Part shown: positions 3,095 to 20,660 of the stretch, one piece after another | Numbering within the stretch: position 1 is the first letter of the stretch | How the letters are laid out: the number at the start of each line of letters is the position of its first letter | NCBI RefSeq assembly: GCF_000242915.1 | Contig: NZ_AFRZ01000001.1 | Span: 1,054,001 to 1,118,000 of the forward strand | DNA from: Sulfurimonas gotlandica GD1 | GTDB lineage: Bacteria; Campylobacterota; Campylobacteria; Campylobacterales; Sulfurimonadaceae | Direction: 5' to 3' | DNA length: 64,000 nt | Program-made: the position numbers and the translations under genes | The notes under the pieces: generated by a model | The model's input: only the letters and a program-made list of their open reading frames with translations | What the model was told of the DNA's origin: nothing | The model's database searches: none

Positions 3095-3102
3095 GATAAA
3101 AA

Positions 3103-5714: not shown

Positions 5715-6402
5715 TAAAATCTTAGCCATCATTCCAGCTCGTGGTGGCTCAAAAGGTTTACCTAAAAAGAATATTTTAGACTTACTCTCTAAACCACTGA
5801 TCGTATGGAGTATAGATGCTGCTCTAAACTCCAAATACATCACTAAAACACTCGTAAGTTCTGATAACGATGAAATACTCTCCATATCTAAAAAGTATGG
5901 TTCAAGCACTATTAAAAGACCGGATATCTTAGCTACTGATACAGCTTCAAGTGAATCAGCCGTTTTAGATGCATTAAAAAAACTAAAAGAAGATTCAGAA
6001 GAATATGATTATCTTATTCTACTCCAGCCAACTTCACCGCTTAGGGATGCTAAAGATATCGATGAAGCTTTTGAAATATTTTTCAACTCAGATGCAACTG
6101 CTCTGATTAGTGTATGTGAAACCGACAACAAAATATTAAAAGCTTTTAAAAAAAATGACTCTGGATATATTGATGGCATCTCAAATAATGACTATCCTTT
6201 TGCCAGAAGACAAGACCTGCCAAAAACATATATGAGCAATGGGGCTATATATATTATTAAAGTAGATGAATTTTTAAAGAGCGAAAAATTATTCACAGAC
6301 AAAACAATCTCCTATGTAATGAGTGATGAAAAAAGTATAGATGTTGATACAAAAGAAGACTTTGAGTCTATAGAGACTATTTTAAAGGTCAAAAATGCAT
6401 GA
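5707..6402 (+). CDS. ptmB: CMP-nonulosonic acid (legionaminate/sialate-type) synthetase
   Basis: 231 residues from the ATG at 5707. An in-frame ATG at 5656 would add 17 residues lacking the family motif and lie deep inside the previous gene, so 5707 (8-base overlap) is preferred. The N terminus has the cytidylyltransferase signature IPARGGSKGLPKKN, and QPTSPLR follows near residue 118. The enzyme activates a nonulosonic acid with CTP to give the CMP-sugar donor used by Maf proteins. It overlaps the first maf gene by 8 bases. Naming as PtmB/LegF rather than PseF or NeuA rests on the PtmE-like gene in the same operon and is an inference. Confidence 0.85.
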   Translation: MTNKILAIIPARGGSKGLPKKNILDLLSKPLIVWSIDAALNSKYITKTLVSSDNDEILSISKKYGSSTIKRPDILATDTASSESAVLDALKKLKEDSEEYDYLILLQPTSPLRDAKDIDEAFEIFFNSDATALISVCETDNKILKAFKKNDSGYIDGISNNDYPFARRQDLPKTYMSNGAIYIIKVDEFLKSEKLFTDKTISYVMSDEKSIDVDTKEDFESIETILKVKNA

Positions 6403-8395
6403 TATAAATGAGTTCATTACAAAAAACTTTAACGACAATATCTCATATTTACAATCATATCATCCTGAGACCTTTGACAAATTGGCTGCCTTAGACAGTG
6501 CTATAGCAAATGCTCACTATAGAGAAAAGTACGAACTTGTGTACGAAAACAACTATTTCGATGTTTTTGAAAAAGATACAAATAGTTATCTTTACACTCA
6601 AAACAGTGCAAAATATGCCGACATAGCCGCACAGAGTGTAAACTATAACATTGAGGAAAACTTATTTAAATGCTTTCATGAACATGAGTTTAATGAAGAT
6701 AGTTTAAAGATGTATAAAGCGATGAATCCACTAGAACATGAGATGAGTGGATTTGCTCCTATTATGGACTATTATAAAAAGAAATCCATAAAGAACAAGC
6801 TATTAAAAACACTAAATAAATTTGTTTTCTTTGGTGTAGGTCTTGGTTTACACATATCATCTATTCATCAAAAAATCCACAGTGAAGTCTATCTAATAAT
6901 AGAAGATGATTTGGAACTTTTTAGGTTATCTCTTTTTACATTAAACTACGCAGATATTGCTAAAGAGAGTACACTAATTTTTTCAGTATTTGAGCAAAAT
7001 AGTGAATTTGCACTAACATGTACAAAGTTCTTCAATACTAAGTTTTACTATAATCACTATATAAAATACTTTCATATTCTTAGTCATAGTAATGATAAAG
7101 TAGAACAGTTTCACATAGCTGTATCTTCACAGTCTCATCTTCTTTTTTATTATAATACTCTGCTTAATCAATATATAAAGCCTCTTGATTATATGTTTAA
7201 AGACTATAACTTTCTAAATAAGAATTTGAATTTCAATGACACAAAACTAAAAGATACAAAATTCCTTATTCTTGGAGCTGGTCCTTCTCTTCAAAAAAAC
7301 AAAAAATGGCTTCAAGAAAATCAAGAAAATTTCATAATAGTGGCCGTCTCTGCAACCATTCCATTTTTAATCCAAGAGAATATCAAAGCTGATATTATTG
7401 TTCATCTAGATGCTTTTAATGCATCTATAAAGTTTTATGAAGACGCTAAGTACCTAAAACATTTAGAAAACTCTATTTTCTTCTTCTCAGATAGAGTACC
7501 CTCACAAATCATTGAGAAACTTCCTAAAGATAAAATATTCTTTTTCGAAAACGGAACAAAGTATAAAGAAAAAACATTAAAGCCGTCTGCACCATGTGTC
7601 GGCTCAATATCTTACCAGATACTACTTTTTTTAAATGCACAAAATATCTATCTACTAGGGGTTGATCTAGCCATTGACTCAAAAACCGGAAAGACTCATA
7701 TTGATTCTCATTCATATGTTCAAACAATGAATATAGATGAAAACAGAATAAAAAAAGATTTATTCACATATGCTGAAACTCTATTTCCTGTTCAGGGTAA
7801 TATTGGGGATGAAGTATTAACAACAGCTCAACTGCTAACTTCCATTGATAGTATTAACCAATCAACTCAAATATTTAAAAACAGTGAACAAAACGTATTT
7901 AACCTTGGAAATGGTGCAAAATTTGTAGATATAAAAGCCGTATCTATTCAAGAGTTAAAATATGTATCTAAGTACAACAAAGAAGCTGCATCTAGCTACA
8001 TATATGACTTGTGCAGTAAAGAGCCTCTAAATGCATTAAATGCCTCAGAATTAGATAGTTTAAGAAATAAGCTAACTCACTCTATTAATCTCTATTCAAC
8101 TTTAGCAAAATACTCCTCCCATGACAAAACATCATCTTCAAAATATATTAAAGATCTGATAAATTTAACTCATACGTTGACAAATGAAAAAGAAAAATCA
8201 AAGTATGAGTTAAGTCGTGTTATAGATGCATATTTAAAATATATCCTAGGCTTTATCTTTGACTTAGCAAATGCTAAAGAAGAGAACAATCTCATCTCAC
8301 ATCTTAAGCACATGGATGCCTTGCTAATACAAAATCTCACACTTATAACTAAAGTTTACACATATAAAATAGAGAATAAAATCAAGGGCAATTAA
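6395..8395 (+). CDS. maf: Maf flagellin glycosyltransferase 1 (DUF115 / MAF_flag10)
   Basis: 666 residues, a usual length for motility accessory factors. The central Rossmann-like MAF_flag10/DUF115 domain (about 190-460) carries GAGPSL near residue 295 and LLGVDLAID near 427. The C terminus is helical. Maf proteins transfer pseudaminic or legionaminic acid from CMP to Ser/Thr of flagellin in the cytoplasm before export. The fold is shared with 6-hydroxymethylpterin pyrophosphokinase MptE, so automated names may mention pterin. It is translationally coupled to the CMP-sugar synthetase and followed by a paralogue. Confidence 0.88.
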   Translation: MHDINEFITKNFNDNISYLQSYHPETFDKLAALDSAIANAHYREKYELVYENNYFDVFEKDTNSYLYTQNSAKYADIAAQSVNYNIEENLFKCFHEHEFNEDSLKMYKAMNPLEHEMSGFAPIMDYYKKKSIKNKLLKTLNKFVFFGVGLGLHISSIHQKIHSEVYLIIEDDLELFRLSLFTLNYADIAKESTLIFSVFEQNSEFALTCTKFFNTKFYYNHYIKYFHILSHSNDKVEQFHIAVSSQSHLLFYYNTLLNQYIKPLDYMFKDYNFLNKNLNFNDTKLKDTKFLILGAGPSLQKNKKWLQENQENFIIVAVSATIPFLIQENIKADIIVHLDAFNASIKFYEDAKYLKHLENSIFFFSDRVPSQIIEKLPKDKIFFFENGTKYKEKTLKPSAPCVGSISYQILLFLNAQNIYLLGVDLAIDSKTGKTHIDSHSYVQTMNIDENRIKKDLFTYAETLFPVQGNIGDEVLTTAQLLTSIDSINQSTQIFKNSEQNVFNLGNGAKFVDIKAVSIQELKYVSKYNKEAASSYIYDLCSKEPLNALNASELDSLRNKLTHSINLYSTLAKYSSHDKTSSSKYIKDLINLTHTLTNEKEKSKYELSRVIDAYLKYILGFIFDLANAKEENNLISHLKHMDALLIQNLTLITKVYTYKIENKIKGN

Positions 8396-8429: not shown

Positions 8430-10436
8430 ATGGAATCTATAGAGAACCAGGCTATTTCGAACTATGAGAAGAATATGGAGTATTTTTCAAAGGAGAAAAA
8501 AACTCTTTTTAATACTATCAATGTATTTAATCATGCTTTAGAAAACGGTGACTATACAGCACAATATGATCTAGAATATATAAACGGTTACTTTGATGTA
8601 AAACTTATAAAGAGTTCAAATTTTCTATATGCTAGAAACAGTAATGATTTCTCAAAAGAGTTAGCTAAACTTGTAGATTTTAAGAAAAACACATATACTT
8701 TTGAAGGTTTCCCAGTATACAATTTTTCTGAAGAAAAACTCCAAAACCTGGATGATATGAACAGTGGATTAGAAGGCATCTACCCTCTTATGACTTACTA
8801 TCTTGAAAATACAAAAAGAGATGATGAGATGAAGAGAATAGAAAAATTTATCTTTGTCGGTACTGGACTTGGTTTTCATATTCCACTTATAAATGATAAA
8901 ATAGATGCTGATGAATATCTGTTTATCGAGGATGATTTAGAGCTTTTTAGACTCTCATTATTTACAACTCAGTACTACAAACTTGCAGAAACCAGCTTCC
9001 TATTTTTTAGTGTGGCTGATGATGAAAATCTTTTTCTAAATACCATGAAAAGGTTTTTACATGACACTTTCTTTTATAATCGCTTTTTAAAATACTCATA
9101 CTTTAGTGCACATTCAGATGATAAAATAAAACAGATTCAAAATGCACTAATGGCTCAGTCTTTTGCTTCCTTTCCATATAAAACAGAGTTAAAAAAATTC
9201 ACTAAACCATTTGAATTGATTAGTGATGAATACAATATTTTAAACTTGAATAATCATTATGAAGATTCTATCTTTAATAAAAAACCTGTTCTCATTATAA
9301 CCGCTGGTCCATCTTTTAAAAAAAATATAGAATGGCTAAAACAAAATCATACCAAGTTTCTTGTAATAGCAGTATCTGCAACTTTAAAAAGGTTATATGA
9401 GCATAATATAGTTCCTGATATTCTAACTCATATTGATGGGTTTGAAGATTCTATGTCTCACTATGACGGTGTTCCTGTAGAAGAATATTTAAAAAACACT
9501 ACAGTTATACTTGGACCATTTGCTCTAAAAAAACTGCGTAATATGTTTCCAAAAGAAAATGTATTTTCGTATGAAGAAAATACAGAATACTTTGAAAACC
9601 ATGGTTTTTTAATAACACCTTGTGTCGGCTCATTCTCTCTGGTTATATCACTAATATTTAATTCTCAAAATGTATATTTACTTGGTCTTGACTTAGCACT
9701 AGATCAAGAAACTGGGTCATCACATGCAGATAATGACCATGTCTTCTATGAAGAGAGTGACATGGAGAAAAAAGACCTATTAATAGATACTATGTCACTT
9801 TTAAAAAATGTGTTTCCTGTTAAAGGCAACCTTAGAGATGTTGTATATACTACTTCTATCCTTCACCTATCAGTACAGTCTTTATACTTAACGATTAAGA
9901 ATGTAAAAAGAGATGATCAGAATCTATATAACTTAAATGACGGAGCACAAATTAACCAAGCTATACCTACTCCTATTGAAGATGTAGACACAGCTATATT
10001 TGAAAGTATAGATAAATCAGATCTTCACAACGCTATCCAAAATACACTACTTAGTCATTCCAGCAATAAGTTAAGTGAAGATGACATCATATCTCTCAAA
10101 AAACGACTTGAAGAGACTAGAGTTATCAAAAAAGATATTGAGTCATACATAAAAAATGTCCGCCATAATAATTCAAATAGTTTTCAATATGATCTTTTAG
10201 GAATAGTATCTGATATCATAGATAAAAATGGGCGTGAAACACATAACCTTGCTCATGTTTATCAAACTTACTTTAAGTATATAGTACCCATCGTAATGGA
10301 TCTGTTTAACACAAAAGGCATAAAAAATGAAAAAAGACACATTAAAAAATTAGATAAACTGATTCAAAAAGAGTTACTCTTAATTGTAAATACATATGAA
10401 AAGGCTATAGTAGATTTTTTAGAAGAGAAATATTAG
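8430..10436 (+). CDS. maf: Maf flagellin glycosyltransferase 2 (DUF115 / MAF_flag10)
   Basis: 668 residues, colinear with Maf1 at 6395 and clearly paralogous. Both share FDVKLIK/FDVFEKD-type N-terminal blocks, EDDLELFRLSLFT near residue 170, TAGPSF near 290 and LLGLDLALD near 425. It starts 34 bases after maf1 with its own -10 box, and its stop is 30 bases from the convergent flagellin array. The likely role is transfer of a CMP-nonulosonate to flagellin. Two copies side by side may serve different acceptor sites, different flagellins or different sugar variants (plain and amidated). That division of labour is conjecture. Confidence 0.88.
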   Translation: MESIENQAISNYEKNMEYFSKEKKTLFNTINVFNHALENGDYTAQYDLEYINGYFDVKLIKSSNFLYARNSNDFSKELAKLVDFKKNTYTFEGFPVYNFSEEKLQNLDDMNSGLEGIYPLMTYYLENTKRDDEMKRIEKFIFVGTGLGFHIPLINDKIDADEYLFIEDDLELFRLSLFTTQYYKLAETSFLFFSVADDENLFLNTMKRFLHDTFFYNRFLKYSYFSAHSDDKIKQIQNALMAQSFASFPYKTELKKFTKPFELISDEYNILNLNNHYEDSIFNKKPVLIITAGPSFKKNIEWLKQNHTKFLVIAVSATLKRLYEHNIVPDILTHIDGFEDSMSHYDGVPVEEYLKNTTVILGPFALKKLRNMFPKENVFSYEENTEYFENHGFLITPCVGSFSLVISLIFNSQNVYLLGLDLALDQETGSSHADNDHVFYEESDMEKKDLLIDTMSLLKNVFPVKGNLRDVVYTTSILHLSVQSLYLTIKNVKRDDQNLYNLNDGAQINQAIPTPIEDVDTAIFESIDKSDLHNAIQNTLLSHSSNKLSEDDIISLKKRLEETRVIKKDIESYIKNVRHNNSNSFQYDLLGIVSDIIDKNGRETHNLAHVYQTYFKYIVPIVMDLFNTKGIKNEKRHIKKLDKLIQKELLLIVNTYEKAIVDFLEEKY

Positions 10437-10444
10437 AAGAGAAG

Positions 10445-10458
10445 AGAGCTAAAGCTCT
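10445..10458. terminator. Hairpin between convergent maf2 and flagellin 1
   Basis: AGAGC-TAAA-GCTCT, a 5-bp stem in the 30-base gap between convergent stops. T-rich DNA (TTCTCTTC) follows on the minus strand, so it could act as a weak terminator of the flagellin transcript. A very similar stem lies 3' of flagellin 6 at 15402-15415. Confidence 0.4.
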
Positions 10459-10466
10459 TAACTCAT

Positions 10467-11294
10467 CTACTGAAGTAATCTCAATACATTTTGCTGAACA
10501 GCATTAGCTTGACTCATCGCATAAGATCCAGACTGAGCTAAAATATTATGTTTTGCAAATGTTGCTGATTCTGCTGCAAAGTCAACATCTCTGATCTGAG
10601 ACTCCGCTGATTTTACATTCACTTCTGTTACAGAAATATTTCTGATTGTAGACTCTAGTTTATTTTGAGCCGCACCAAGTGTTGCACGCTGTCCATCAAC
10701 TGCTACAATGGCAAGGTCAACATTAGAAATAGTGCCTTCTGCTGCTGTTCTTGTAGTTACAGCTGTACCACCTGTTACTAAGACTGCTGTTTGTGCTGAA
10801 CCAATAGCAACTGTTTGAACCTCAGTTGAATATGCACCTGTATGAAACGTAAAACTACCTGCTGTACCACCTGTCCCATCTAAAAGATTTACACCATTGA
10901 ACTTAGTAGTGGTAGCAATATCATTAGCTTCTCCCAATAATGCAACTACCTCTTGAGATATGTAACCTCTTGATGTAGCATCTTGAGTATCATTCGAAGC
11001 TTGAATTGCAAGGACACGAACTCTTTTTAAGATATTTCCATACTCTTCTAAAGCACCATCTGCTGTTTGAATAAGACCGATACCGTCATTTGAGTTACGA
11101 ATCGCTTGACCAAGGCCTTGTGACTGTGCAGCAAGTTTATTTGCAATTGCTAGACCAGCTGAATCATCGGCCGCTTTGTTAATACGAAGACCTGATGAAA
11201 GAGAGTTAAGACTTTTATCAAGTCCTACATTGTTCATTGTAGCGTTTCTGTGTGCGTTCATTGCACCAATATTTGTGTTGATTCTAAAACCCAT
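10467..11294 (-). CDS. Flagellin 1 (sigma-54-type subgroup, second gene of pair)
   Basis: 275 residues: N-terminal D0/D1 helices (MGFRINTNIGAMNAHRNA), a short variable centre (about 145-200) and C-terminal D1/D0 ending NAVQQNVLRLLQ. There are no D2/D3 domains, as in short environmental flagellins. It polymerises into the filament after type III export. Together with flagellin 2 it has VTEVNVKSAESQ and ESATFAKHN near the C terminus, where the other six have VTQVNIAAAESQ and ESANFAKHN. The 88-base gap to flagellin 2 has no sigma-28 or sigma-54 box and no terminator, so co-transcription with flagellin 2 is likely. Its variable centre closely resembles that of flagellin 7. Start ATG has AAAAGGAT upstream. 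Confidence 0.95.
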   Translation of the reverse strand: MGFRINTNIGAMNAHRNATMNNVGLDKSLNSLSSGLRINKAADDSAGLAIANKLAAQSQGLGQAIRNSNDGIGLIQTADGALEEYGNILKRVRVLAIQASNDTQDATSRGYISQEVVALLGEANDIATTTKFNGVNLLDGTGGTAGSFTFHTGAYSTEVQTVAIGSAQTAVLVTGGTAVTTRTAAEGTISNVDLAIVAVDGQRATLGAAQNKLESTIRNISVTEVNVKSAESQIRDVDFAAESATFAKHNILAQSGSYAMSQANAVQQNVLRLLQ

Positions 11295-11382
11295 GACACA
11301 TCCTTTTTTTTGTTATCAAAATAACTTAAGCTACTGAAACAACTTTAGCACTCTCTGCTATATAACATTAGCTTGGTTTATA

Positions 11383-12219
11383 TTATTGAAGTAACTTCAA
11401 TACATTTTGCTGAACAGCATTAGCTTGACTCATCGCATAAGATCCAGACTGAGCTAAAATATTATGTTTTGCAAATGTTGCTGATTCTGCTGCAAAGTCA
11501 ACATCTCTGATCTGAGACTCCGCTGATTTTACATTCACTTCTGTTACAGAAATATTTCTGATTGTAGACTCTAGTTTATTTTGAGCCGCACCAAGTGTTG
11601 CACGTTTTCCATCTACATTTGTGATTGCAGTTCCTATTGCAGCGATTGTTGTCTCAGCATCTGCTCTTGTAGATACTGTGAAAGTAGCTGCTGTTGTACC
11701 AACCAATGTAGAAACCTGAGCATCTCCAATAGTTACAGTTTGTGTCTCAGTGCTGTAAGCACCTGTATGAAACGTAAATGCACCTGCAGTACCACCTGTA
11801 GCATCTAATAGATTAACGCCATTAAATTTAGTAGTAGTAGCAATATCTTGTGCTTCTTCCATCAATGCTGTAACTTCTTGTTGAATATAACCACGAGATG
11901 TAGTATCTTGAGTATCATTGGCAGCTTGAACAGCAAGTACACTAACTCTTTTTAAGATATTTCCATACTCTTCTAAAGCACCATCTGCAGTTTGGATAAG
12001 ACCGATACCGTCATTTGAGTTACGAATTGCCTGACCAAGACCTTGAGACTGTGCAGAAAGTTTGTTTGCAATTGCTAGACCAGCTGAATCATCAGCCGCT
12101 TTGTTAATACGAAGACCTGAACTTAATGCATTAAGACTTTTATCAAGTCCAACATTGTTCATTGTAGCGTTTCTGTGGGCATTCATTGCGCCTATGTTTG
12201 TGTTTATTCTAAAACCCAT
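11383..12219 (-). CDS. Flagellin 2 (sigma-54-driven)
   Basis: 278 residues with the same D0/D1 layout as its neighbours and a variable centre of about 60 residues (TIGDAQVSTLVGTTAATF region) not clearly shared with another copy. The C-terminal signature VTEVNVKSAESQ/ESATFAKHN places it in a subgroup with flagellin 1. It is the only array member preceded by a good sigma-54 promoter (12254-12270), which recalls flaB of Campylobacter and Helicobacter. Its 5' leader is short, about 24 bases, and lacks the hairpin found in front of flagellins 3-8. The last residues read LKLLQ, not LRLLQ. Confidence 0.95.
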   Translation of the reverse strand: MGFRINTNIGAMNAHRNATMNNVGLDKSLNALSSGLRINKAADDSAGLAIANKLSAQSQGLGQAIRNSNDGIGLIQTADGALEEYGNILKRVSVLAVQAANDTQDTTSRGYIQQEVTALMEEAQDIATTTKFNGVNLLDATGGTAGAFTFHTGAYSTETQTVTIGDAQVSTLVGTTAATFTVSTRADAETTIAAIGTAITNVDGKRATLGAAQNKLESTIRNISVTEVNVKSAESQIRDVDFAAESATFAKHNILAQSGSYAMSQANAVQQNVLKLLQ

Positions 12220-12253
12220 AACAAATCCTTTTTTTCGATATTTAAGAACTCAA

Positions 12254-12270
12254 AGCAAAGAATATACCAA
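12254..12270 (-). promoter_or_regulatory. Sigma-54 (RpoN) promoter of flagellin 2
   Basis: On the minus strand TTGGTATATTCTTTGCT has GG-N10-GC with the -24 TTGG and -12 TTGC blocks exactly spaced. It matches consensus TTGGcacgNNNNTTGCt except in the weaker -22 to -20 bases. The transcript would start about 24 bases before the ATG at 12219. Confidence 0.8.
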
Positions 12271-12311
12271 GTTAAATTTAGTGTGATTAATGTGTGTGTG
12301 GATAGGAGGGT

Positions 12312-12333
12312 GTCGAAGGATTATTCCTTCGAC
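12312..12333. terminator. Hairpin after flagellin 3
   Basis: GTCGAAGGA-TTAT-TCCTTCGAC, a perfect 9-bp stem between flagellin 3 and the flagellin 2 promoter. There is no T-run on the minus strand, so it is a stable 3' end structure or an inefficient terminator. Confidence 0.5.
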
Positions 12334-12356
12334 GTATAGAAGTTAATTAAGATTGA

Positions 12357-13193
12357 TTATTGTAACAATCTTAAAACGTTTTGCTGAACAGCATTAGCTT
12401 GACTCATTGCATAAGATCCAGACTGAGCTAAAATATTATGTTTAGCAAAGTTTGCACTTTCTGCTGCGAAGTCAACATCTCTAATTTGAGACTCTGCTGC
12501 TGCAATATTTACTTGAGTTACAGATATATTTCTAACTGTTGACTCTAGTTTGTTCTGAGCCGCACCTATTGTTGCACGTTTTCCATCAACTTTTGTAATA
12601 GATTCATCCATACTTGCAATAGTAATTTCCGCATTTGCTCTAGTATCAACTGCTGTAGCACCTGTAACAAGTACCGCTGTTGTTGCAGTACCTATAGCAG
12701 CACTTTGAGTCTCAGTAGTATAGGCACCTGTATGGAATACGAATGTACCAAGTGCAGCACCTGATCCTGCTGTACCATCAAGAATTTTTACACCATTGAA
12801 CTTAGTAGTAGTAGCAATATCATTTGCTTCTGCTAACAGAGCTGTAACTTCCTGACCTATATAACCACGTGAAGTTGCATCTTGAGTATCATTGGCTGCT
12901 TGAGTTGCAAGTACTCTAACTCTTTTTAAGATATTTCCATACTCTTCTAAGGCACCATCTGCAGTTTGAAGAAGACCAATACCGTCATTCGAATTTCTAA
13001 TTGACTGACCAAGACCTTGAGACTGTGCTGAAAGTTTGTTTGCAATCGCTAGACCAGCTGAATCATCAGCCGCTTTGTTGATACGAAGACCTGAACTTAA
13101 CGAGTTAAGACTTTTGTCAAGTCCTATGTTGTTCATTGTAGCGTTTCTGTGTGCGTTCATCGCACCTATGTTTGTATTTATTCTAAAGCCCAT
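12357..13193 (-). CDS. Flagellin 3 (sigma-28-type)
   Basis: 278 residues. N-terminal D0/D1 has GLGQSIRNSNDGIGLLQTADG, unlike the QAV/QAI ... GLIQ of most copies; only flagellin 8 shares GIGLLQ. It also shares RATIGAAQNK with flagellin 8 where the others have RATLGAAQNK. The variable centre includes AAIGTATTAVLVTGATAVDTR. The C terminus has the ESANFAKHN signature of the sigma-28 group. It is served by a sigma-28 promoter and leader at 13239-13295. Filament subunit; a specialised role within the array cannot be read from sequence. Confidence 0.95.
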   Translation of the reverse strand: MGFRINTNIGAMNAHRNATMNNIGLDKSLNSLSSGLRINKAADDSAGLAIANKLSAQSQGLGQSIRNSNDGIGLLQTADGALEEYGNILKRVRVLATQAANDTQDATSRGYIGQEVTALLAEANDIATTTKFNGVKILDGTAGSGAALGTFVFHTGAYTTETQSAAIGTATTAVLVTGATAVDTRANAEITIASMDESITKVDGKRATIGAAQNKLESTVRNISVTQVNIAAAESQIRDVDFAAESANFAKHNILAQSGSYAMSQANAVQQNVLRLLQ

Positions 13194-13238
13194 AATAAAT
13201 CCTTTTTAGGGTCGAAAGCCTTTCGCTCTCTATAGTTT

Positions 13239-13295
13239 TTCAGCTTCCTTGCTGAACTTATGTCTAGTATATCGTCACTTAAAAGAATAACTTTA
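13239..13295 (-). promoter_or_regulatory. Sigma-28 (FliA) promoter and leader hairpin of flagellin 3
   Basis: Promoter TAAAGTTA-N11-GACGATAT (13269-13295) matches the FliA consensus TAAAGTTT-N11-GCCGATAA. The leader of about 70 nt folds TTCAGC-AAGGAA-GCTGAA (13239-13256), exposing GGA in the loop, with a second small stem at 13213-13225 and AAGGA before the ATG. GGA-in-loop plus GGA at the ribosome site is the pattern bound by CsrA. Confidence 0.8.
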
Positions 13296-13314
13296 AATAC
13301 TAAACTAAAAAAGC

Positions 13315-13331
13315 CAAAGGAAAAACCTTTG
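13315..13331 (-). terminator. Terminator of flagellin 4
   Basis: On the minus strand CAAAGG-TTTTT-CCTTTG is followed by GCTTTTTTA, a typical intrinsic terminator 26 bases after the flagellin 4 stop. It makes that gene monocistronic. Confidence 0.75.
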
Positions 13332-13356
13332 ACTATATAAATATATTGACTATTTA

Positions 13357-14196
13357 CTACTGTAAAAGTCTTAAAACATTCTGCTGAACAGCATTAGCTT
13401 GACTCATCGCATAAGATCCAGACTGAGCTAAAATATTATGTTTAGCAAAGTTTGCACTTTCTGCTGCGAAGTCAACATCTCTAATTTGAGACTCTGCTGC
13501 TGCAATATTTACTTGAGTTACAGATATATTTCTAACTGTTGACTCTAGTTTGTTCTGAGCCGCACCAAGTGTTGCACGTTTTCCGTCGACTGCTTTAATA
13601 CCATTATCCATAAGAAGGATAGAAGCTTCAGCATCTCCACGAGTTGTTACTAATACGGCAGCAGCACCACCAGCTACTGTAGCTGATACTTCAGCATTAC
13701 CAATAGTTACTGTTTGAACTTCAGTAGTATATGCACCTGTATGGAATGTAAAACTACCTGCTACTGAACCACCAGTATTATCTAAAAGTTTTACACCATT
13801 AAATTTAGTAGTAGTTGCAATATCTTGTGCTTCACCTAAAAGTGCTTGTACTTCTTGAGAAATATAACCACGTGAAGTTGCATCTTGAGTATCATTCGAA
13901 GCTTGAACAGCTAGAACTCTAACTCTTTTTAAGATGTTTCCATACTCTTCTAAGGCACCATCTGCAGTTTGGATAAGACCAATACCGTCATTTGAATTAC
14001 GAACTGCTTGACCAAGACCTTGAGACTGTGCTGAAAGTTTGTTTGCAATCGCTAGACCAGCTGAATCATCAGCCGCTTTGTTGATACGAAGACCTGAACT
14101 TAACGAGTTAAGACTTTTGTCAAGTCCTATGTTGTTCATTGTAGCGTTTCTGTGTGCGTTCATCGCACCTATGTTTGTATTTATTCTAAAGCCCAT
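13357..14196 (-). CDS. Flagellin 4 (sigma-28-type)
   Basis: 279 residues. N terminus has GLGQAVRNSNDGIGLIQ; the variable centre (TIGNAEVSATVAGGAAAVLV) leads into TTRGDAEASILLMDN, a block shared with flagellin 8. LDNTGGSVAGSFTFHTGAY is shared with flagellin 6. C terminus is of the VTQVNIAAAESQ/ESANFAKHN group. Flanked on both sides by the near-identical intergenic repeat, so it is a complete promoter-gene-terminator cassette of about 1,003 bp repeating in phase with its neighbours. Filament subunit. Confidence 0.95.
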   Translation of the reverse strand: MGFRINTNIGAMNAHRNATMNNIGLDKSLNSLSSGLRINKAADDSAGLAIANKLSAQSQGLGQAVRNSNDGIGLIQTADGALEEYGNILKRVRVLAVQASNDTQDATSRGYISQEVQALLGEAQDIATTTKFNGVKLLDNTGGSVAGSFTFHTGAYTTEVQTVTIGNAEVSATVAGGAAAVLVTTRGDAEASILLMDNGIKAVDGKRATLGAAQNKLESTVRNISVTQVNIAAAESQIRDVDFAAESANFAKHNILAQSGSYAMSQANAVQQNVLRLLQ

Positions 14197-14241
14197 AATA
14201 AATCCTTTTTAGGGTCGAAAGCCTTTCGCTCTCTATAGTTT

Positions 14242-14298
14242 TTCAGCTTCCTTGCTGAACTTATGTCTAGTATATCGTCACTTAAAAGAATAACTTTA
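14242..14298 (-). promoter_or_regulatory. Sigma-28 promoter and leader hairpin of flagellin 4
   Basis: TAAAGTTA-N11-GACGATAT at 14272-14298; leader hairpin with loop AAGGAA at 14242-14259. Same sequence as in front of flagellin 3. Confidence 0.8.
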
Positions 14299-14317
14299 AA
14301 TACTAAACTAAAAAAGC

Positions 14318-14334
14318 CAAAGGAAAAACCTTTG
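14318..14334 (-). terminator. Terminator of flagellin 5
   Basis: Minus-strand CAAAGG-TTTTT-CCTTTG followed by GCTTTTTTA, 26 bases after the flagellin 5 stop. Confidence 0.75.
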
Positions 14335-14359
14335 ACTATATAAATATATTGACTATTTA

Positions 14360-15184
14360 CTACTGTAAAAGTCTTAAAACATTCTGCTGAACAGCATTAG
14401 CTTGACTCATTGCATAAGATCCAGACTGAGCTAAAATATTATGTTTAGCAAAGTTTGCACTTTCTGCTGCGAAGTCAACATCTCTAATTTGAGACTCTGC
14501 TGCTGCAATATTTACTTGAGTTACAGATATATTTCTAACTGTTGACTCTAGTTTGTTCTGAGCCGCACCAAGTGTTGCACGTTTTGCATCAATTCTACCA
14601 ATAGATACATCCATACCTGCTACCGCAAGTTCTGCATCTGCTCTTGTACTTACACTTGAAGCACTTACAATCAGCGCAGCTTGAGCTGAACCAATAGTTA
14701 CAGTTTGAACCTCTGTTGTATATGCACCTGTATGGAATGTAAATGCACCAGCAGTTCCACCTGTACCATCAAGAATTTTTGTACCATTAAATTTAGTAGT
14801 AGTAGCAATATCATCAGCTTCTGCCAATAAGGCCGTAACCTCTTGTTGAATATACCCACGAGATGTAGTATCTTGAGTATCATTCGAAGCTTGAACAGCT
14901 AGAACTCTAACTCTTTTTAAGATGTTTCCATACTCTTCTAAGGCACCATCTGCAGTTTGGATAAGACCGATACCGTCATTTGAATTACGAACTGCTTGAC
15001 CAAGACCTTGAGACTGTGCCGAAAGTTTGTTTGCAATTGCTAGACCAGCTGAATCATCAGCCGCTTTGTTGATACGAAGACCTGAACTTAACGAGTTAAG
15101 ACTTTTGTCAAGTCCTATGTTGTTCATTGTAGCGTTTCTGTGCGCGTTCATCGCACCTATGTTTGTATTTATTCTAAAGCCCAT
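14360..15184 (-). CDS. Flagellin 5 (sigma-28-type)
   Basis: 274 residues, the shortest copy. The second half of the variable region, from SASSVSTRADAELAVAG through GRIDAKRATLGAAQ, is the same as in flagellin 6. The preceding part (TIGSAQAALIV) differs, so the similarity is in blocks. N- and C-terminal signatures are those of the sigma-28 group. Promoter at 15264-15290 differs slightly from the common cassette. Filament subunit. Confidence 0.95.
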   Translation of the reverse strand: MGFRINTNIGAMNAHRNATMNNIGLDKSLNSLSSGLRINKAADDSAGLAIANKLSAQSQGLGQAVRNSNDGIGLIQTADGALEEYGNILKRVRVLAVQASNDTQDTTSRGYIQQEVTALLAEADDIATTTKFNGTKILDGTGGTAGAFTFHTGAYTTEVQTVTIGSAQAALIVSASSVSTRADAELAVAGMDVSIGRIDAKRATLGAAQNKLESTVRNISVTQVNIAAAESQIRDVDFAAESANFAKHNILAQSGSYAMSQANAVQQNVLRLLQ

Positions 15185-15230
15185 AATAAATCCTTTTTAG
15201 GGTTGAAAGCCTTTCGCTCTCTATAGTTTT

Positions 15231-15290
15231 TCAGCTTCCTTGCTGAGTGTTTCCACGTATGTAATATCGTCATCATAAAAAAAACATTTA
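15231..15290 (-). promoter_or_regulatory. Sigma-28 promoter and leader hairpin of flagellin 5
   Basis: Promoter TAAATGTT-N11-GACGATAT (15264-15290), with a weaker -35 than the repeat copies. The leader keeps the hairpin TCAGC-AAGGAA-GCTGA (15231-15246). Upstream of the hairpin the sequence departs from the common repeat. Confidence 0.75.
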
Positions 15291-15300
15291 GTCTTTAACG

Positions 15301-15341
15301 AAAAAAGGCCAGTAATATTTTTAATATTACTGGCCTTTTTT
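15301..15341. terminator. Strong intrinsic terminator after flagellin 6
   Basis: A perfect 19-bp inverted repeat (arms 15301-15319 and 15323-15341, loop TTT) with GGCCAGTAATATT core and flanking A6/T6 runs, so it can work in both directions. It insulates flagellin 6 from the flagellin 5 promoter. A further weak stem, AGAGC-TTAC-GCTCT, lies at 15402-15415. Confidence 0.85.
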
Positions 15342-15423
15342 GTTTAATTGTTTAGATATTAGTAGTGAAAAAGTACTAAAACGTCTTCTAAAGAAACGTG
15401 CAGAGCTTACGCTCTTAGTTCAT

Positions 15424-16251
15424 CTACTGAAGTAGACGAAGCACGTTTTGCTGAACAGCATTAGCTTGACTCATTGCATAAGATCCAGACTGAGCTAAAA
15501 TATTATGTTTAGCGAAGTTTGCTGATTCTGCTGCGAAGTCAACATCTCTAATTTGAGACTCTGCTGCTGCAATATTTACTTGAGTTACAGATATATTTCT
15601 AACTGTTGACTCTAGTTTGTTCTGAGCCGCACCAAGTGTTGCACGTTTTGCATCAATTCTACCAATAGATACATCCATACCTGCTACCGCAAGTTCTGCA
15701 TCTGCTCTTGTACTTACACTTGAAGCACTTACCATAACTGCAATCTGTGTATCACCAATTGTTACAGTTTGAACCTCAGTTGTATATGCACCAGTATGGA
15801 ATGTAAAACTACCAGCTACTGAACCACCAGTATTATCTAAAAGGTTAACACCATTAAATTTAGTAGTAGTAGCAATATCATCAGCTTCTGCCAATAAGGC
15901 CGTAACCTCTTGTTGAATATACCCACGAGATGTAGTATCTTGAGTATCATTGGCTGCTTGAACAGCTAGAACTCTAACTCTTTTTAAGATATTTCCATAC
16001 TCTTCTAAGGCACCATCTGCAGTTTGGATAAGACCAATACCGTCATTTGAATTACGAACTGCTTGACCAAGACCTTGAGACTGTGCTGAAAGTTTGTTTG
16101 CAATCGCTAGACCAGCTGAATCATCAGCCGCTTTGTTGATACGAAGACCTGAACTTAACGAGTTAAGACTTTTGTCAAGTCCTATGTTGTTCATTGTAGC
16201 GTTTCTGTGTGCGTTCATCGCACCTATGTTTGTATTTATTCTAAAGCCCAT
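15424..16251 (-). CDS. Flagellin 6 (sigma-28-type)
   Basis: 275 residues. Mosaic centre: LLDNTGGSVAGSFTFHTGAY as in flagellin 4, then VSTRADAELAVAGMD ... RIDAKRATLGAAQ as in flagellin 5. Its 3' end and 3' untranslated DNA (CTCTTAGTTCATCTACTGAAGTA on the plus strand, split here as CTCTTAGTTC and ATCTACTGAAGTA) resemble those of flagellin 1, not its neighbours. N and C termini belong to the sigma-28 group. Filament subunit with its own promoter at 16327-16353 and a strong terminator. Confidence 0.95.
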   Translation of the reverse strand: MGFRINTNIGAMNAHRNATMNNIGLDKSLNSLSSGLRINKAADDSAGLAIANKLSAQSQGLGQAVRNSNDGIGLIQTADGALEEYGNILKRVRVLAVQAANDTQDTTSRGYIQQEVTALLAEADDIATTTKFNGVNLLDNTGGSVAGSFTFHTGAYTTEVQTVTIGDTQIAVMVSASSVSTRADAELAVAGMDVSIGRIDAKRATLGAAQNKLESTVRNISVTQVNIAAAESQIRDVDFAAESANFAKHNILAQSGSYAMSQANAVQQNVLRLLQ

Positions 16252-16296
16252 AATAAATCCTTTTTAGGGTCGAAAGCCTTTCGCTCTCTATAGTCT

Positions 16297-16353
16297 TTCA
16301 GCTTCCTTGCTGAACTTATGTCTAGTATATCGTCACTTAAAAGAATAACTTTA
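16297..16353 (-). promoter_or_regulatory. Sigma-28 promoter and leader hairpin of flagellin 6
   Basis: TAAAGTTA-N11-GACGATAT at 16327-16353; hairpin with loop AAGGAA at 16297-16314. Confidence 0.8.
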
Positions 16354-16372
16354 AATACTAAACTAAAAAAGC

Positions 16373-16389
16373 CAAAGGAAAAACCTTTG
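16373..16389 (-). terminator. Terminator of flagellin 7
   Basis: Minus-strand CAAAGG-TTTTT-CCTTTG followed by GCTTTTTTA, 26 bases after the flagellin 7 stop. Confidence 0.75.
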
Positions 16390-16414
16390 ACTATATAAAT
16401 ATATTGACTATTTA

Positions 16415-17242
16415 CTACTGTAAAAGTCTTAAAACATTCTGCTGAACAGCATTAGCTTGACTCATTGCATAAGATCCAGACTGAGCTAAAATATTATGTT
16501 TAGCAAAGTTTGCACTTTCTGCTGCGAAGTCAACATCTCTAATTTGAGACTCTGCTGCTGCAATATTTACTTGAGTTACAGATATATTTCTAACTGTTGA
16601 CTCTAGTTTGTTCTGAGCCGCACCAAGTGTTGCACGTTTTCCGTCGACTGCTTGAATAGCAGTATCCATATTAGATATTGTAGCTTCTGCTGCTGTTCTT
16701 GTATTAACAGCTGTACCACCTGTTACTAAAACAGCTGTTTGTGCTGAGCCAATTGCAACTGCTTGAACTTCAGTTGTATATGCACCTGTATGGAATGTAA
16801 AAGTACCTGTAGTACCACCTGTACCATCTAAAAGATTTACACCATTGAACTTAGTAGTAGTAGCAATATCATTTGCTTCTGCTAACAGAGCTGTAACTTC
16901 CTGACCTATATAACCACGTGAAGTTGCATCTTGAGTATCATTCGAAGCTTGAACAGCTAGAACTCTAACTCTTTTTAAGATATTTCCATACTCTTCTAAG
17001 GCACCATCTGCAGTTTGGATAAGACCAATACCGTCATTTGAATTACGAACTGCTTGACCAAGACCTTGAGACTGTGCTGAAAGTTTGTTTGCAATCGCTA
17101 GACCAGCTGAATCATCAGCCGCTTTGTTGATACGAAGACCTGAACTTAACGAGTTAAGACTTTTGTCAAGTCCTATGTTGTTCATTGTAGCGTTTCTGTG
17201 TGCGTTCATCGCACCTATGTTTGTATTTATTCTAAAGCCCAT
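16415..17242 (-). CDS. Flagellin 7 (sigma-28-type)
   Basis: 275 residues. Its variable region (AIGSAQTAVLVTGGTAV, then TRTAAEATISN) is nearly the same as that of flagellin 1 at the other end of the array. Yet its C terminus (VTQVNIAAAESQ/ESANFAKHN) is that of the sigma-28 group. The GYIGQEVTALLAEANDIATT stretch is shared with flagellin 3. Flanked by two copies of the intergenic repeat. Filament subunit. Confidence 0.95.
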   Translation of the reverse strand: MGFRINTNIGAMNAHRNATMNNIGLDKSLNSLSSGLRINKAADDSAGLAIANKLSAQSQGLGQAVRNSNDGIGLIQTADGALEEYGNILKRVRVLAVQASNDTQDATSRGYIGQEVTALLAEANDIATTTKFNGVNLLDGTGGTTGTFTFHTGAYTTEVQAVAIGSAQTAVLVTGGTAVNTRTAAEATISNMDTAIQAVDGKRATLGAAQNKLESTVRNISVTQVNIAAAESQIRDVDFAAESANFAKHNILAQSGSYAMSQANAVQQNVLRLLQ

Positions 17243-17287
17243 AATAAATCCTTTTTAGGGTCGAAAGCCTTTCGCTCTCTATAGTCT

Positions 17288-17344
17288 TTCAGCTTCCTTG
17301 CTGAACTTATGTCTAGTATATCGTCACTTAAAAGAATAACTTTA
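17288..17344 (-). promoter_or_regulatory. Sigma-28 promoter and leader hairpin of flagellin 7
   Basis: TAAAGTTA-N11-GACGATAT at 17318-17344; hairpin with loop AAGGAA at 17288-17305. Confidence 0.8.
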
Positions 17345-17363
17345 AATACTAAACTAAAAAAGC

Positions 17364-17380
17364 CAAAGGAAAAACCTTTG
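17364..17380 (-). terminator. Terminator of flagellin 8
   Basis: Minus-strand CAAAGG-TTTTT-CCTTTG followed by GCTTTTTTA shortly after the flagellin 8 stop. Confidence 0.75.
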
Positions 17381-17397
17381 ACTCTGAAATCTATTTA

Positions 17398-18240
17398 CTA
17401 TTGTAATAATCTTAAAACATTCTGCTGAACAGCATTAGCTTGACTCATTGCATAAGATCCAGACTGAGCTAAAATATTATGTTTAGCGAAGTTTGCTGAT
17501 TCTGCTGCAAAGTCAACATCTCTAATTTGAGACTCTGCTGCTGCAATATTTACTTGAGTTACAGATATATTTCTAACTGTTGACTCTAGTTTGTTCTGAG
17601 CCGCACCTATTGTTGCACGTTTTGCATCAATTTTTTGCATTGCATTATCCATTTTAAGGATTGAAGCTTCAGCATCACCACGAGTAGTTACTGCAACTGT
17701 AGTAGCTGCAGCACTAAGAATTTCTGCTACCGTAGCTGATGCAATCACTGTACTTTGCGTCTCAGTAGTATATGCACCAGTATGAAATATGAATGTACCA
17801 TCTGCACCAGCACCACCAGTACCGTTAAGCACACCTACTCCATTAAATTTTGTAGTAGTAGCAATATCATTTGCTTCACCTAAAAGTGCTTGTACCTCTT
17901 GAGAGATATAACCTCTTGATGTAGCATCTTGAGTATCATTCGAAGCTTGAACAGCTAGAACTCTAACTCTTTTTAAAATCTGTCCATACTCTTCTAACGC
18001 ACCGTCTGCAGTTTGAAGAAGGCCAATACCGTCATTTGAGTTACGAACTGCCTGACCAAGACCTTGAGACTGTGCTGAAAGTTTGTTTGCAATTGCTAGA
18101 CCAGCTGAATCATCAGCCGCTTTGTTGATACGAAGACCTGATGAAAGAGAGTTAAGACTTTTATCTAATCCCACATTATTCATTGTTGCGTTTCTGTGTG
18201 CGTTCATCGCACCTATATTTGTATTTATTCTAAAGCCCAT
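17398..18240 (-). CDS. Flagellin 8 (sigma-28-type, array-proximal)
   Basis: 280 residues from the second of two adjacent ATGs. The first, at 18243, is only 3 bases from the AAGGA ribosome site; 18240 gives the MGFRINTN start seen in all copies. It is the most divergent sigma-28 member: EEYGQILKRV in place of EEYGNILKRV, VLNGTGGAGADGTFIFHTG, an Ala/Val-rich centre, and RATIGAAQNK as in flagellin 3. The promoter and leader differ in sequence from the repeat cassettes but keep the same architecture. Filament subunit, divergent from topA. Confidence 0.94.
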   Translation of the reverse strand: MGFRINTNIGAMNAHRNATMNNVGLDKSLNSLSSGLRINKAADDSAGLAIANKLSAQSQGLGQAVRNSNDGIGLLQTADGALEEYGQILKRVRVLAVQASNDTQDATSRGYISQEVQALLGEANDIATTTKFNGVGVLNGTGGAGADGTFIFHTGAYTTETQSTVIASATVAEILSAAATTVAVTTRGDAEASILKMDNAMQKIDAKRATIGAAQNKLESTVRNISVTQVNIAAAESQIRDVDFAAESANFAKHNILAQSGSYAMSQANAVQQNVLRLLQ

Positions 18241-18285
18241 CATAAATCCTTTTGTGGGTAAGAGCCTTTTGCTCTATTCAGTTCT

Positions 18286-18335
18286 CAGCGTCCTTGCCGA
18301 TTAGTACTATATCGGTACTAATAACTTTAACTTTA
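18286..18335 (-). promoter_or_regulatory. Sigma-28 promoter and leader hairpin of flagellin 8
   Basis: TAAAGTTA-N11-ACCGATAT at 18309-18335. The leader stem CGGC-AAGGAC-GCTG (18286-18299) has changed stem bases but keeps GGA in the loop; a second stem AGAGC-AAAAG-GCTCT lies further downstream. Confidence 0.75.
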
Positions 18336-18406
18336 ATTTAATTTTAAATGTACACTAGTTTTCACTATTTAATCTTTTTTCGATACACTTCCAAAATCAA
18401 AACCAC

Positions 18407-18417
18407 TATACTATACT
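18407..18417 (+). promoter_or_regulatory. Putative -10 boxes for topA
   Basis: Two overlapping TATACT boxes (18407-18412 and 18412-18417) 18-28 bases before the topA start, with AGGAAAA as ribosome site. No clear -35 box is seen. Confidence 0.4.
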
Positions 18418-18434
18418 ATATATAGGAAAACTAT

Positions 18435-20660
18435 TTGAACTTAATTATCGTCGAGTCACCAGCTAAAGCAAAGACAATTAAAAACTTTTTAGGTAAAGAA
18501 TATGAAGTTATCGCGTCTAAAGGTCACATTCGTGATTTACCTAAATCTCGTTTTGGAATTACAGTAGATGAGGACAACCAACTTGTTCCAGCATACAGTG
18601 TTGCAAAAGAGAATGCTGCTACAGTTAAAGAGATTAAAGACTTAGCAAAGAAAGCAGATGTTATATATATCGCGACCGATGAGGATCGTGAAGGTGAAGC
18701 TATTGGTTGGCATATTGCTCACGCTATAAAAAGAGATCCTGAGGAACTTCCTCGTATAGTTTTTCACGAGATTACTAAAACTGCCATAAACCATGCACTA
18801 GAATCTGCTCGTAAGATAGATATGAATATGGTTAACGCTCAACAAGCTCGCCGTATGCTAGATCGTGTTGTTGGATATAAACTCTCGCCACTGCTCGCGA
18901 GCAAAATTCAAAAAGGTTTATCTGGAGGTCGTGTTCAATCTTCAACTCTGAAGCTTGTAGTTGATCGCGAAAGAGAAATCAAAGCTTTTATTCCTGTAGA
19001 GTACTGGTCAATTGACACTCTATTTAAAACAGATATAGAAGCAACTCTTATTGCACATAAGGGTGACAAACTATCTAAACTCTCAATTGAAAACAAAAAT
19101 GATGCAGAGGCTATCACTAAAAGTGTTAGTGCTGATACATTTGTTATCTCAAAAATTGAGACTAAACAGAGAAAGACATCTACTCCTCCACCGTTTATGA
19201 CTTCTACTCTTCAGCAGACTGCATCTAGCAAATTAGGCTTCACTCCTAAAAAAACTATGATGGTTGCACAAGCTCTTTATGAAGGTGTTAAAACTCCTGA
19301 TGGTACATCTGGTGTTATTACATATATGAGAACAGATTCACTTAACATGGCTGCAGAAGCTGTTGGTGCAGTTCGTGGGATTATTGAAAGCAGATATGGT
19401 AAAAAATATCTTCCTGAGGAGCCAAAATTTTATGGCAAAAAAGCAAAAGGCGCACAAGAAGCTCACGAGGCTATCCGCCCTACTATGCTTCACTTCTCTC
19501 CAGAAGTTGCACAATCATTTTTAAAAGCGGATGAGATTAAACTTTACCGTCTGATTTATGAAAGATTTATGGCTTGTCAAATGAATGATGCTATGTTTGA
19601 GCAACAAAGCATCATTTTTGAGGGTGAAGAAAACGAGTATAGAGCAAGTGGCAGAAAGCTGATATTTGACGGTTTTTACGCTGTTACCGGAACTGAGGAC
19701 AAAGACAAACTTCTTCCAACTCTAAAAGAGGGTGAAAAAGCTGAGATTCAAACTATAAATCCGGAGCAACACTTTACAGAACCACCTGCTCGTTACTCTG
19801 AAGCATCTCTAATTAAAAAACTGGAGTCTGAGGGAGTTGGTCGTCCATCTACTTACGCTCCAACCATTGCAACTCTCAGTGGTCGTACTTATGTAACGAT
19901 TGAGAAAAAACAAATCATTCCGACAGAGATAGCATTTACTGTAACTGAGATGCTGGAGAAAAACTTTGCAAATATTGTAGATATATCTTTTACTGCAAAT
20001 ATGGAAGAAAAACTTGATGAGATTTCTGAAGGTGAAAATGACTGGCAAAAACTTCTAAGTGATTTCTACTTTCCTTTTATGGATCAAGTTGCTGAAGGTA
20101 AAGAGAAAATAATCTCTCTTAAACTTGCAAAACCATTAGGTCGTACTTGTCCAAAATGTGGAGAGCATGAGTTGCTACTTCGTTCTGGTCGTTTTGGTAA
20201 CTTTGTAGCTTGTAGTGGTTTTCCAAAGTGTAAATACACAGAACAAGTTGATGAAGAAGGTAATAAAATAGAAGTGAAAGTTGAAACAAGCGACGAAGCT
20301 TGTGACAAGTGTGGAAAAGAGATGATCGTTAAAAATGGTAGAAATGGTAAATTTTTAGCATGTAGCGGTTACCCTGATTGTAAAAATACTAAAAGTATGG
20401 ATATTGAGACTAAAGTCAGTGAAGTTCCTTGTCCTGATTGTGGCGGTGAAATAAGTCTTAAAAACTCTAGACGTGGGGCATTTTGGGGATGTGGGAACTA
20501 CCCAGATTGTAAATTTATATCTAAGTTCGAGCCTACAACTATTAAATGTAAAGAAAAGGATTGTAAGGGAGTTCTTGCCCAGAGAGTTTATAGAAACAAA
20601 GATATTTATGAATGTGTTAAGTGTAAAACTAGGACCCCAAGAGGCGAAGAAGCGAAGTAA
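18435..20660 (+). CDS. topA: DNA topoisomerase I
   Basis: 741 residues, type IA topoisomerase that relaxes negative supercoils. The Toprim domain opens with IVESPAKAKTI and has DEDREGEAI near residue 80. The active-site Tyr is in TYMRTDS near residue 297. The C terminus has three C4 zinc ribbons (CPKC, CDKC and CPDC pairs from about residue 570) plus a fourth, partial cysteine pair set. The start is TTG at 18435: it begins the conserved NLIIVESPAKAK and has AGGAAAA 6 bases upstream. It diverges from the flagellin array and leads a tight run with the phosphodiesterase and bioB. Confidence 0.97.
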   Translation: MNLIIVESPAKAKTIKNFLGKEYEVIASKGHIRDLPKSRFGITVDEDNQLVPAYSVAKENAATVKEIKDLAKKADVIYIATDEDREGEAIGWHIAHAIKRDPEELPRIVFHEITKTAINHALESARKIDMNMVNAQQARRMLDRVVGYKLSPLLASKIQKGLSGGRVQSSTLKLVVDREREIKAFIPVEYWSIDTLFKTDIEATLIAHKGDKLSKLSIENKNDAEAITKSVSADTFVISKIETKQRKTSTPPPFMTSTLQQTASSKLGFTPKKTMMVAQALYEGVKTPDGTSGVITYMRTDSLNMAAEAVGAVRGIIESRYGKKYLPEEPKFYGKKAKGAQEAHEAIRPTMLHFSPEVAQSFLKADEIKLYRLIYERFMACQMNDAMFEQQSIIFEGEENEYRASGRKLIFDGFYAVTGTEDKDKLLPTLKEGEKAEIQTINPEQHFTEPPARYSEASLIKKLESEGVGRPSTYAPTIATLSGRTYVTIEKKQIIPTEIAFTVTEMLEKNFANIVDISFTANMEEKLDEISEGENDWQKLLSDFYFPFMDQVAEGKEKIISLKLAKPLGRTCPKCGEHELLLRSGRFGNFVACSGFPKCKYTEQVDEEGNKIEVKVETSDEACDKCGKEMIVKNGRNGKFLACSGYPDCKNTKSMDIETKVSEVPCPDCGGEISLKNSRRGAFWGCGNYPDCKFISKFEPTTIKCKEKDCKGVLAQRVYRNKDIYECVKCKTRTPRGEEAK

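Follow-up and report, generated by a model that had tools for sequence, protein, structure and literature searches.

An eight-gene flagellin array in Sulfurimonas gotlandica GD1, an enlarged form of a locus shared within the genus

Sulfurimonas gotlandica GD1 has a tandem array of eight intact flagellin genes, all on the minus strand, at 10467-18240 of the stretch analyzed here (the window: 64,000 nucleotides of contig NZ_AFRZ01000001.1, forward-strand positions 1,054,001 to 1,118,000). Rather than a locus of a new kind, the array is an enlarged form of one that is found in relatives in the genus as well. It is quite likely that the usual Sulfurimonas arrangement (topA, flaA-type gene, flaB-type gene, Maf) has grown here by tandem copying to six flaA-type and two flaB-type units, giving the cell a mixed FlaA filament on a FlaB base.

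Anatomy of the array

Genes are named here by order of transcription, from c8 at the head of the array to c1 at its end; the features of the array given below are on the minus strand unless stated otherwise. Six are of flaA type: c8 (17398-18240, 280 amino acids; the start in the open reading frame list is one codon earlier), c7 (16415-17242, 275 amino acids), c6 (15424-16251, 275), c5 (14360-15184, 274), c4 (13357-14196, 279), and c3 (12357-13193, 278). Next come c2 (11383-12219, 278 amino acids), which is of flaB type in its KLLQ end and sigma54-like promoter, and c1 (10467-11294, 275 amino acids), which has a flaB-type C end and a c7-like core. This anatomy fits a set of six flaA-type and two flaB-type genes. 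Gaps between genes are 88-239 bp and proteins are 79-96% identical from copy to copy. The preliminary description of this DNA had reported eight complete tandem genes, and both the open reading frames and a profile search of the whole genome bear it out: Flagellin_N matches all eight copies (E 2e-41 to 1e-44), none has an internal stop, and every protein starts with MGFRINTNIG and ends with QNVL[RK]LLQ. In both copies scanned for it (c1 and c5), Flagellin_C is also present at full length beside Flagellin_N, giving the two terminal helical domains of a bacterial flagellin. A predicted structure of c5, of moderate confidence (mean predicted local distance difference test score 73), places the variable core at about residues 134-200, between helices at 5-129 and 181-273, and a fold search with this model returns flagellin filaments. 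The best named matches of the array proteins are mostly on Sulfurimonas contigs, at no more than 81% identity in a search from which records of this genome were possibly excluded.

Each flaA-type gene is preceded by a leader of about 68 nt, common to c3-c8, with two hairpins and a GGA in the first loop. Leaders lie at 13194-13261 (c3), 14197-14264 (c4), 15185-15252 (c5), 16252-16319 (c6), 17243-17310 (c7), and 18241-18306 (c8); those of c4 and c6 were placed by a covariance model, and the other four by folding (less well for c8) as well as by that model. Folded as single sequences, the leaders of c3, c5, and c7 reach z-scores of -2.8 to -3.7. In an alignment of 27 leaders from the window and its relatives, picked for carrying the leader and including four of the six in the window, GGA is invariant in the loop of the first hairpin, the second hairpin follows, and AAAAGGAT stands ahead of the start. 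GGA thus occurs at both places expected of a CsrA-type leader, hairpin loop and ribosome site, in all 27 of these chosen leaders, and the stems covary. Changes are seen on both sides in six of the nine pairs of the structure, and covariation is 0.358 as against 0.197 in shuffles, which keep no relatedness (none of 500 shuffles scored as high). When the structure is slid along the alignment, covariation stays at or below 0.12, so that the true structure has three times the value of the best slid one.

The covariance model recovers six leaders in the genome of the strain, each scoring at least 66 bits with E below 1e-10 and all before c3-c8, in a scan that scored 150 of 2434 first-look candidates. 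At 29.7 bits, the same scan found a degraded leader copy before a broken flagellin gene; a weak match of 27.8 bits, which stands before fliD, was not taken as a leader. Across 33 sources there were 44 matches at E below 1e-5, together with a weak pair (E 0.06) in one locus of another family of the order (f8, discussed below). A crude finder of first-stem hairpins (30 of 53 genes against 6.9 expected, 3 of them with sigma54-like sites) was not relied on, and the covariance model was used instead. An Rfam scan of window positions 9000-20000 gave nothing over any family cut-off; its three sub-threshold matches, to Thr_leader on both strands of a long inverted repeat at 15.3 kb and to IS009 inside c2, were rejected as chance.

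The leader of c3-c8 resembles the CsrA-regulated flaA leader of Campylobacter jejuni, and we predict that it binds CsrA. According to passages of PMC4894983, the C. jejuni leader presents ANGGA in two hairpin loops, CsrA binds and represses it, FliW relieves the repression, the flaA mRNA itself titrates CsrA, and flaB has a sigma54 promoter. The likeness extends to two flagellin classes (sigma28 flaA and sigma54 flaB), a leader with GGA in a hairpin loop, and the presence of csrA and fliW (PMC4894983 and PMC12445086, in part); the S. gotlandica genome has one csrA and two fliW genes. The systems differ in that there are six plus two genes here rather than one plus one, in that the flagellins are short (about 275 amino acids), and in the placing of the second hairpin.

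Promoter classes divide the array in the same way. A sigma28-like pattern (TAAA-N15-18-CGATAT) occurs six times in the window, where shuffles lead one to expect 0.7, and all six occurrences stand directly before c3-c8: at 13269-13295 (c3), 14272-14298 (c4), 15264-15290 (c5), 16327-16353 (c6), 17318-17344 (c7), and 18309-18335 (c8). In this sigma28-like promoter, all six genes agree with the flaA class. By the sigma54-type promoter of the flaB class, c2 belongs there, with a TTGG-N10-GCT match at 12254-12270 found by pattern matching and by comparison across loci; c1 has none. That comparison took in 53 flagellin genes at 19 loci (the window, 17 loci of relatives, and one further locus, L116). 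Sigma28-like sites precede 33 genes (4.1 expected) and sigma54-like sites 14 (0.07 expected), and no gene has both. The sigma54-type gene is usually the last of its array, adjoining Maf; in the window it is the second-last. A gap of 88 bp, in which no terminator-like hairpin was found, separates c1 from c2, and c1 is probably read through from the c2 transcript.

Terminator-like hairpins matching a consensus follow c4 (13312-13334), c5 (14315-14337), c7 (16370-16392), and c8 (17359-17385), and a long terminator-like inverted repeat follows c6 (15301-15341), listed on the plus strand only, its minus-strand T-run being read from the sequence. The flaA-type unit would then be a self-contained cassette of sigma28-like promoter, two-hairpin leader, open reading frame, and, in five of six cases, terminator-like hairpin. 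The gap behind c6 (window 15184-15424), read by eye, begins like the sequence behind c1, that is, like the end of the array, which suggests a fossil array end within the array.

Copy number and recombination at a conserved locus

The locus was read in relatives at 17 loci from 16 genomes of the genus, picked for many matches or few contigs, so that large arrays are over-represented. Flagellin genes occupy the same place in each, at 2-5 per genome. Thirteen of the 17 loci lie between topA and a Maf-like gene (the Maf-like flank of L028 being only 23% alike), three run into a contig end at one flank, and one has topA only. Flanks and classes of promoter and leader are the same in these loci as in the window, and in them too the ends are alike and the cores diverse; the loci differ in holding 2-5 genes rather than eight. 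Among 135 genomes of the genus, with FlgL-like matches counted, the strain leads with 11 Flagellin_N matches; five others reach 5-8, and 129 have four or fewer, counts that may be too low for draft genomes, which tend to break in repeats. Hence the array is not of one size in all relatives; one size in all of them would, by the preliminary description, have made it ordinary for the group.

The copies have not diverged evenly. Among c3-c8, silent divergence is 0.14 over codons 1-95 and 0.12 at the C end, and 0.46-0.47 in the core. Three junctions of 553 bp are distinguished by only one or two bases; each comprises 210 bp of gene end, 163 bp of intergenic sequence that holds terminator, promoter, and leader, and the first 180 bp of the following gene. 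Several pairs of genes share runs of identical polymorphic sites beyond those in 1000 permutations (global P 0.001), and the result holds on silent sites alone. The near-identical junctions, the runs, and the low silent divergence at the ends together indicate old cores and recently copied junction blocks, and we read the array as homogenized by recombination with its core diversity left in place. One gene, c1, is a chimera of a c2-like C end and a core 87% like that of c7; over the C end, DNA identity is 99% between c1 and c2, as against 83-86% with the other six.

The same contrast of cores and constant parts is seen beyond the window. A comparison of short flagellins (104 found, 85 distinct ones kept; left out were long or identical ones, those with unknown letters, and loci L001-L011, L093-L104, L107-L115, and L121-L132) gave a mean identity among the eight window copies of 57% in cores and 94.8% in constant parts. 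In the arrays of relatives, these figures are 63.2% and 94.1%; between window copies and other loci, they are 34.9% and 82.3%. A tree of 61 flagellins shows no clustering by promoter class (16 changes against 15.6 in shuffles), and in it the genes of four genomes (G001, G066, G014, and G004) each group by genome. The idea that promoter classes are old protein lineages was accordingly not borne out, two cross-genome flaB pairs apart.

Near relatives can differ in the kind of flagellin they carry. Genomes close by TopA identity (91% for both G044 and G133, 90% for G107) have two or three long flagellins of 392-600 amino acids, as against the short ones of the strain; G027 (TopA 89%) also has a short flagellin, and G105 is likewise near by TopA (92%). 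Flagellin type may have been exchanged.

A probable mixed filament and its alternatives

How would such an array be used? The sigma54-type c2 would be made early, with c1 probably following by read-through, and would build the basal part of the filament. Late expression would then come from the six flaA-type genes, CsrA holding their leaders until FliW frees them, and in the filament body six FlaA-type subunits would be mixed, which have near-identical D0/D1 ends but differ in their outer tips. With so many leaders, more CsrA may be titrated as well. Recombination between near-identical junctions, by unequal crossing-over and gene conversion, would alter copy number and homogenize the ends while the cores stay different. 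A filament mixed from several FlaA-type subunits, following a FlaB-type base, is the most likely product. The preliminary description had proposed either a filament of mixed composition or a store of variants. The first of these fares best, with eight complete genes, seven of them behind promoter-like sequence; a silent donor store fits poorly, as no copy is partial or lacks a start, though the mosaic shows that copies have exchanged sequence.

Several points weigh against the enlarged-locus reading and its mixed filament. Expression, CsrA binding, subunit mixing, and benefit are all drawn from sequence. Related leaders can exceed the covariation shuffles even without a structure; the c8 leader folds barely better than shuffles (z -1.1); and where the second CsrA hairpin of C. 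jejuni covers the ribosome site, the conserved second hairpin here is situated upstream of that site. A weak stem of three pairs over the ribosome site appears only in the single-sequence folds of c3, c5, and c7 and is absent from the consensus. When the whole window is scanned with three mismatches allowed, the sigma54-like pattern assigned to c2 does not exceed chance (two found, 1.26 expected), so that the weight of this call rests on the comparison across loci. In that comparison the sigma54-like gene of L012 is the fourth of five and matches a looser pattern only, and the promoter scan of flagellin genes saw no sigma54-like pattern in L017, L024, or L028; c1 shows neither a sigma28-like nor a sigma54-like pattern, nor a recognizable leader. 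The terminators are consensus matches, of which 26 were found against 4.5 expected, many inside genes. In the tree, flaB-type genes group across genomes in two cases (L013 with L015, 100/99; L025 with L026, 98/67). The window genes form three pairs (c5/c6, c1/c7, and c4/c8 at 85/95) and no single supported clade, and some of their cores may therefore be of outside origin.

Dosage alone is possible, if on the unlikely side: copies would be kept for more flagellin mRNA, and core differences would be drift under relaxed constraint. A dN/dS (ratio of nonsynonymous to synonymous change) above 1, which diversifying selection would need, was not found in the cores; the value is 0.45, which suits dosage and also counts against the preferred reading. 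Copy number varies freely, and other arrays of the genus likewise have diverse cores and alike ends. However, recent duplication and drift alone predict equal silent divergence of ends and core, and the two are about four-fold apart.

A bolder version of the mixed filament seems rather unlikely. Here, continual recombination would keep the assembly ends and the CsrA leader uniform while the exposed tip varies, so that one filament shows six or more surfaces at once; in a free-living chemolithotroph, the gain would be protection from flagellum-binding phages or grazers and not from host immunity, with copy number as the selected trait.

It is doubtful that the array is a store of variants, with one main expressed flagellin and the others acting as gene-conversion donors for surface variation against phages or grazers. 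The mosaic relations between copies, the union in c1 of the c2 C end with the c7 core, and the diverse cores between two long helices in the moderate-confidence model would all suit it. Silent-cassette antigenic variation of the pilS or vls type has partial, promoterless donors and one expression site; here, the eight complete open reading frames, seven with promoter-like sequence, leave no silent class. The recently copied parts, moreover, are mainly ends and junctions, the opposite of what transfer of core cassettes would leave.

That the leaders are what multiplies, six of them buffering CsrA and so releasing its other targets while the filament is made, appears improbable. Titration of CsrA by flaA mRNA in C. 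jejuni (PMC4894983, in part) offers a precedent, and the six near-identical leaders have no strong copy elsewhere in the genome. On the other side, a single flaA gene is enough in C. jejuni, the leader travels with its gene so that its copying needs no reason of its own, and arrays of another family carry a different leader. False expansion in assembly is very improbable: exact repeats within the array reach 437 bp, but each copy has a core of its own, the genome is one contig of 2.95 Mb, and other genomes have arrays of 3-5 genes, with one of 12 known from another family, making a simple collapse or expansion artefact unlikely when judged from sequence rather than from reads.

Flagellin copy number is thus tied to one conserved locus that varies in size between species, with promoter class and leader kept while coding ends are homogenized, and the question of why many bacteria have several flagellins becomes testable within one genus. 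On grounds of sequence motifs and covariation, the CsrA-type flagellin leader known from Campylobacter would extend to Sulfurimonas.

Other flagellin sets, flanking genes, and solitary flagellins

Large flagellin sets are not confined to this strain. Excerpts of the literature report fifteen flagellins in Magnetococcus (PMC8306008), seven in Rhizobium leguminosarum (PMC2936354), and six each in Bdellovibrio (PMC2791853) and Caulobacter (PMC7591256); these resemble the present case in having several flagellins per genome, in other lineages and under other control, and no common origin is claimed. Closer in layout is fliC1-3 of Stenotrophomonas maltophilia, whose tandem flagellins cluster by species; in the passages available, it is a three-gene operon without the promoter-leader cassette that each flaA-type gene has here (PMC8998449). 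Titles and abstract openings of open-licence literature, a partial coverage and so weak evidence, yielded no description of a Sulfurimonas or Arcobacter flagellin array. The available part of a study of flagellin diversity (PMC7018530) mentions neither genus nor the word tandem, and main-text passages of one on structured RNAs of an Arcobacter genome (PMC6429828), supplements aside, do not contain "flagell".

Within the order, nine of 398 genomes (completeness 95 or more, the strain included) have at least eight flagellin matches when at most nine candidates are scored per genome, and a full count in 20 chosen genomes reached 15. One genome of family f8, assembled as one contig (G426), has twelve flagellins in tandem and another (G319) has seven; in G173 and G185, of one or two contigs, the copies are scattered. 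The notion that eight copies are exceptional for the whole order was therefore rejected: among arrays of this known kind the present one is large, but it sets no record for the order. The remark in the preliminary description that two flagellin genes are typical of Campylobacter and Helicobacter agrees with the literature; the rarity it implied was overstated.

The f8 arrays of G426 and G319 resemble the window array in their tandem flagellins (282-293 amino acids), in ending beside a Maf-like gene, and in their near-identical leaders. They differ in that the leader is another, longer one, no topA is present in the stretches read, and the flagellins are 45-49% identical to the c5 or orphan query. 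Five such arrays (L107, L109, L110, L114, and L115, from G426, G319, G242, G271, and G264) have a distinct conserved leader of about 90 nt with covarying hairpins, which may be a new structured RNA; in the four loci scanned, Rfam gave nothing above its cut-offs. Leaders number one fewer than genes throughout (11/12 in G426, 6/7 in G319, 4/5 in G242, 3/4 in G271, and 2/3 in G264), and wherever the first gene of an array is visible, it is without the leader. With 150 candidates scored per genome, the leader was also found in G283 (five), G309 (four, weaker), and G234 (two), and in neither G215 nor S. gotlandica. In G319, a three-gene block recurs after 3327 bp, a sign that the array may have grown by duplication of several genes at a time.

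On the 5' side of the window array, the divergent neighbor at 18435-20660 (plus strand), a conserved flank of the locus, is a gene that we take, from its sequence, to be topA. On the other side, a convergent Maf-like flagellin glycosyltransferase (8430-10436, plus strand) stops 30 bp from the array; its MptE-like domain is over the cut-off, and its Maf N-terminal domain scores 22.1 bits against a cut-off of 23.5. A second Maf-like glycosyltransferase (6395-8395, plus strand) has both domains over their cut-offs. Nonulosonate-type glycan genes occupy 645-6402 on the plus strand (a nucleotidyltransferase, a radical SAM protein, a HisF/HisH-like pair, a WbuX-like amidotransferase, and a PseF-like cytidylyltransferase, with the HisF and PseF models scoring below NCBIfam cut-offs). 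Just left of the window, at about 1048.8-1053 kb of the genome (L131 and L132), two genes named by eye open the glycan cluster that leads to the array: one is FliD-like and has a sigma54-like site, the other is NeuB-like.

Three Flagellin_N matches of the genome lie outside the array. One is an orphan at 334 kb, another is the broken flagellin at 2.54 Mb, and the third, at 2.68 Mb, is a long protein taken by eye for FlgL. The orphan (277 amino acids; L009:3603-4436, 333.6 kb) has a different C end (NLFK) and no leader match, and is possibly FlaC-like. The broken gene, a ninth flagellin at 2543.5 kb (L010), has an in-frame TGA and a longer middle region, and keeps a sigma28-like site, seen by eye, together with its reduced leader copy.

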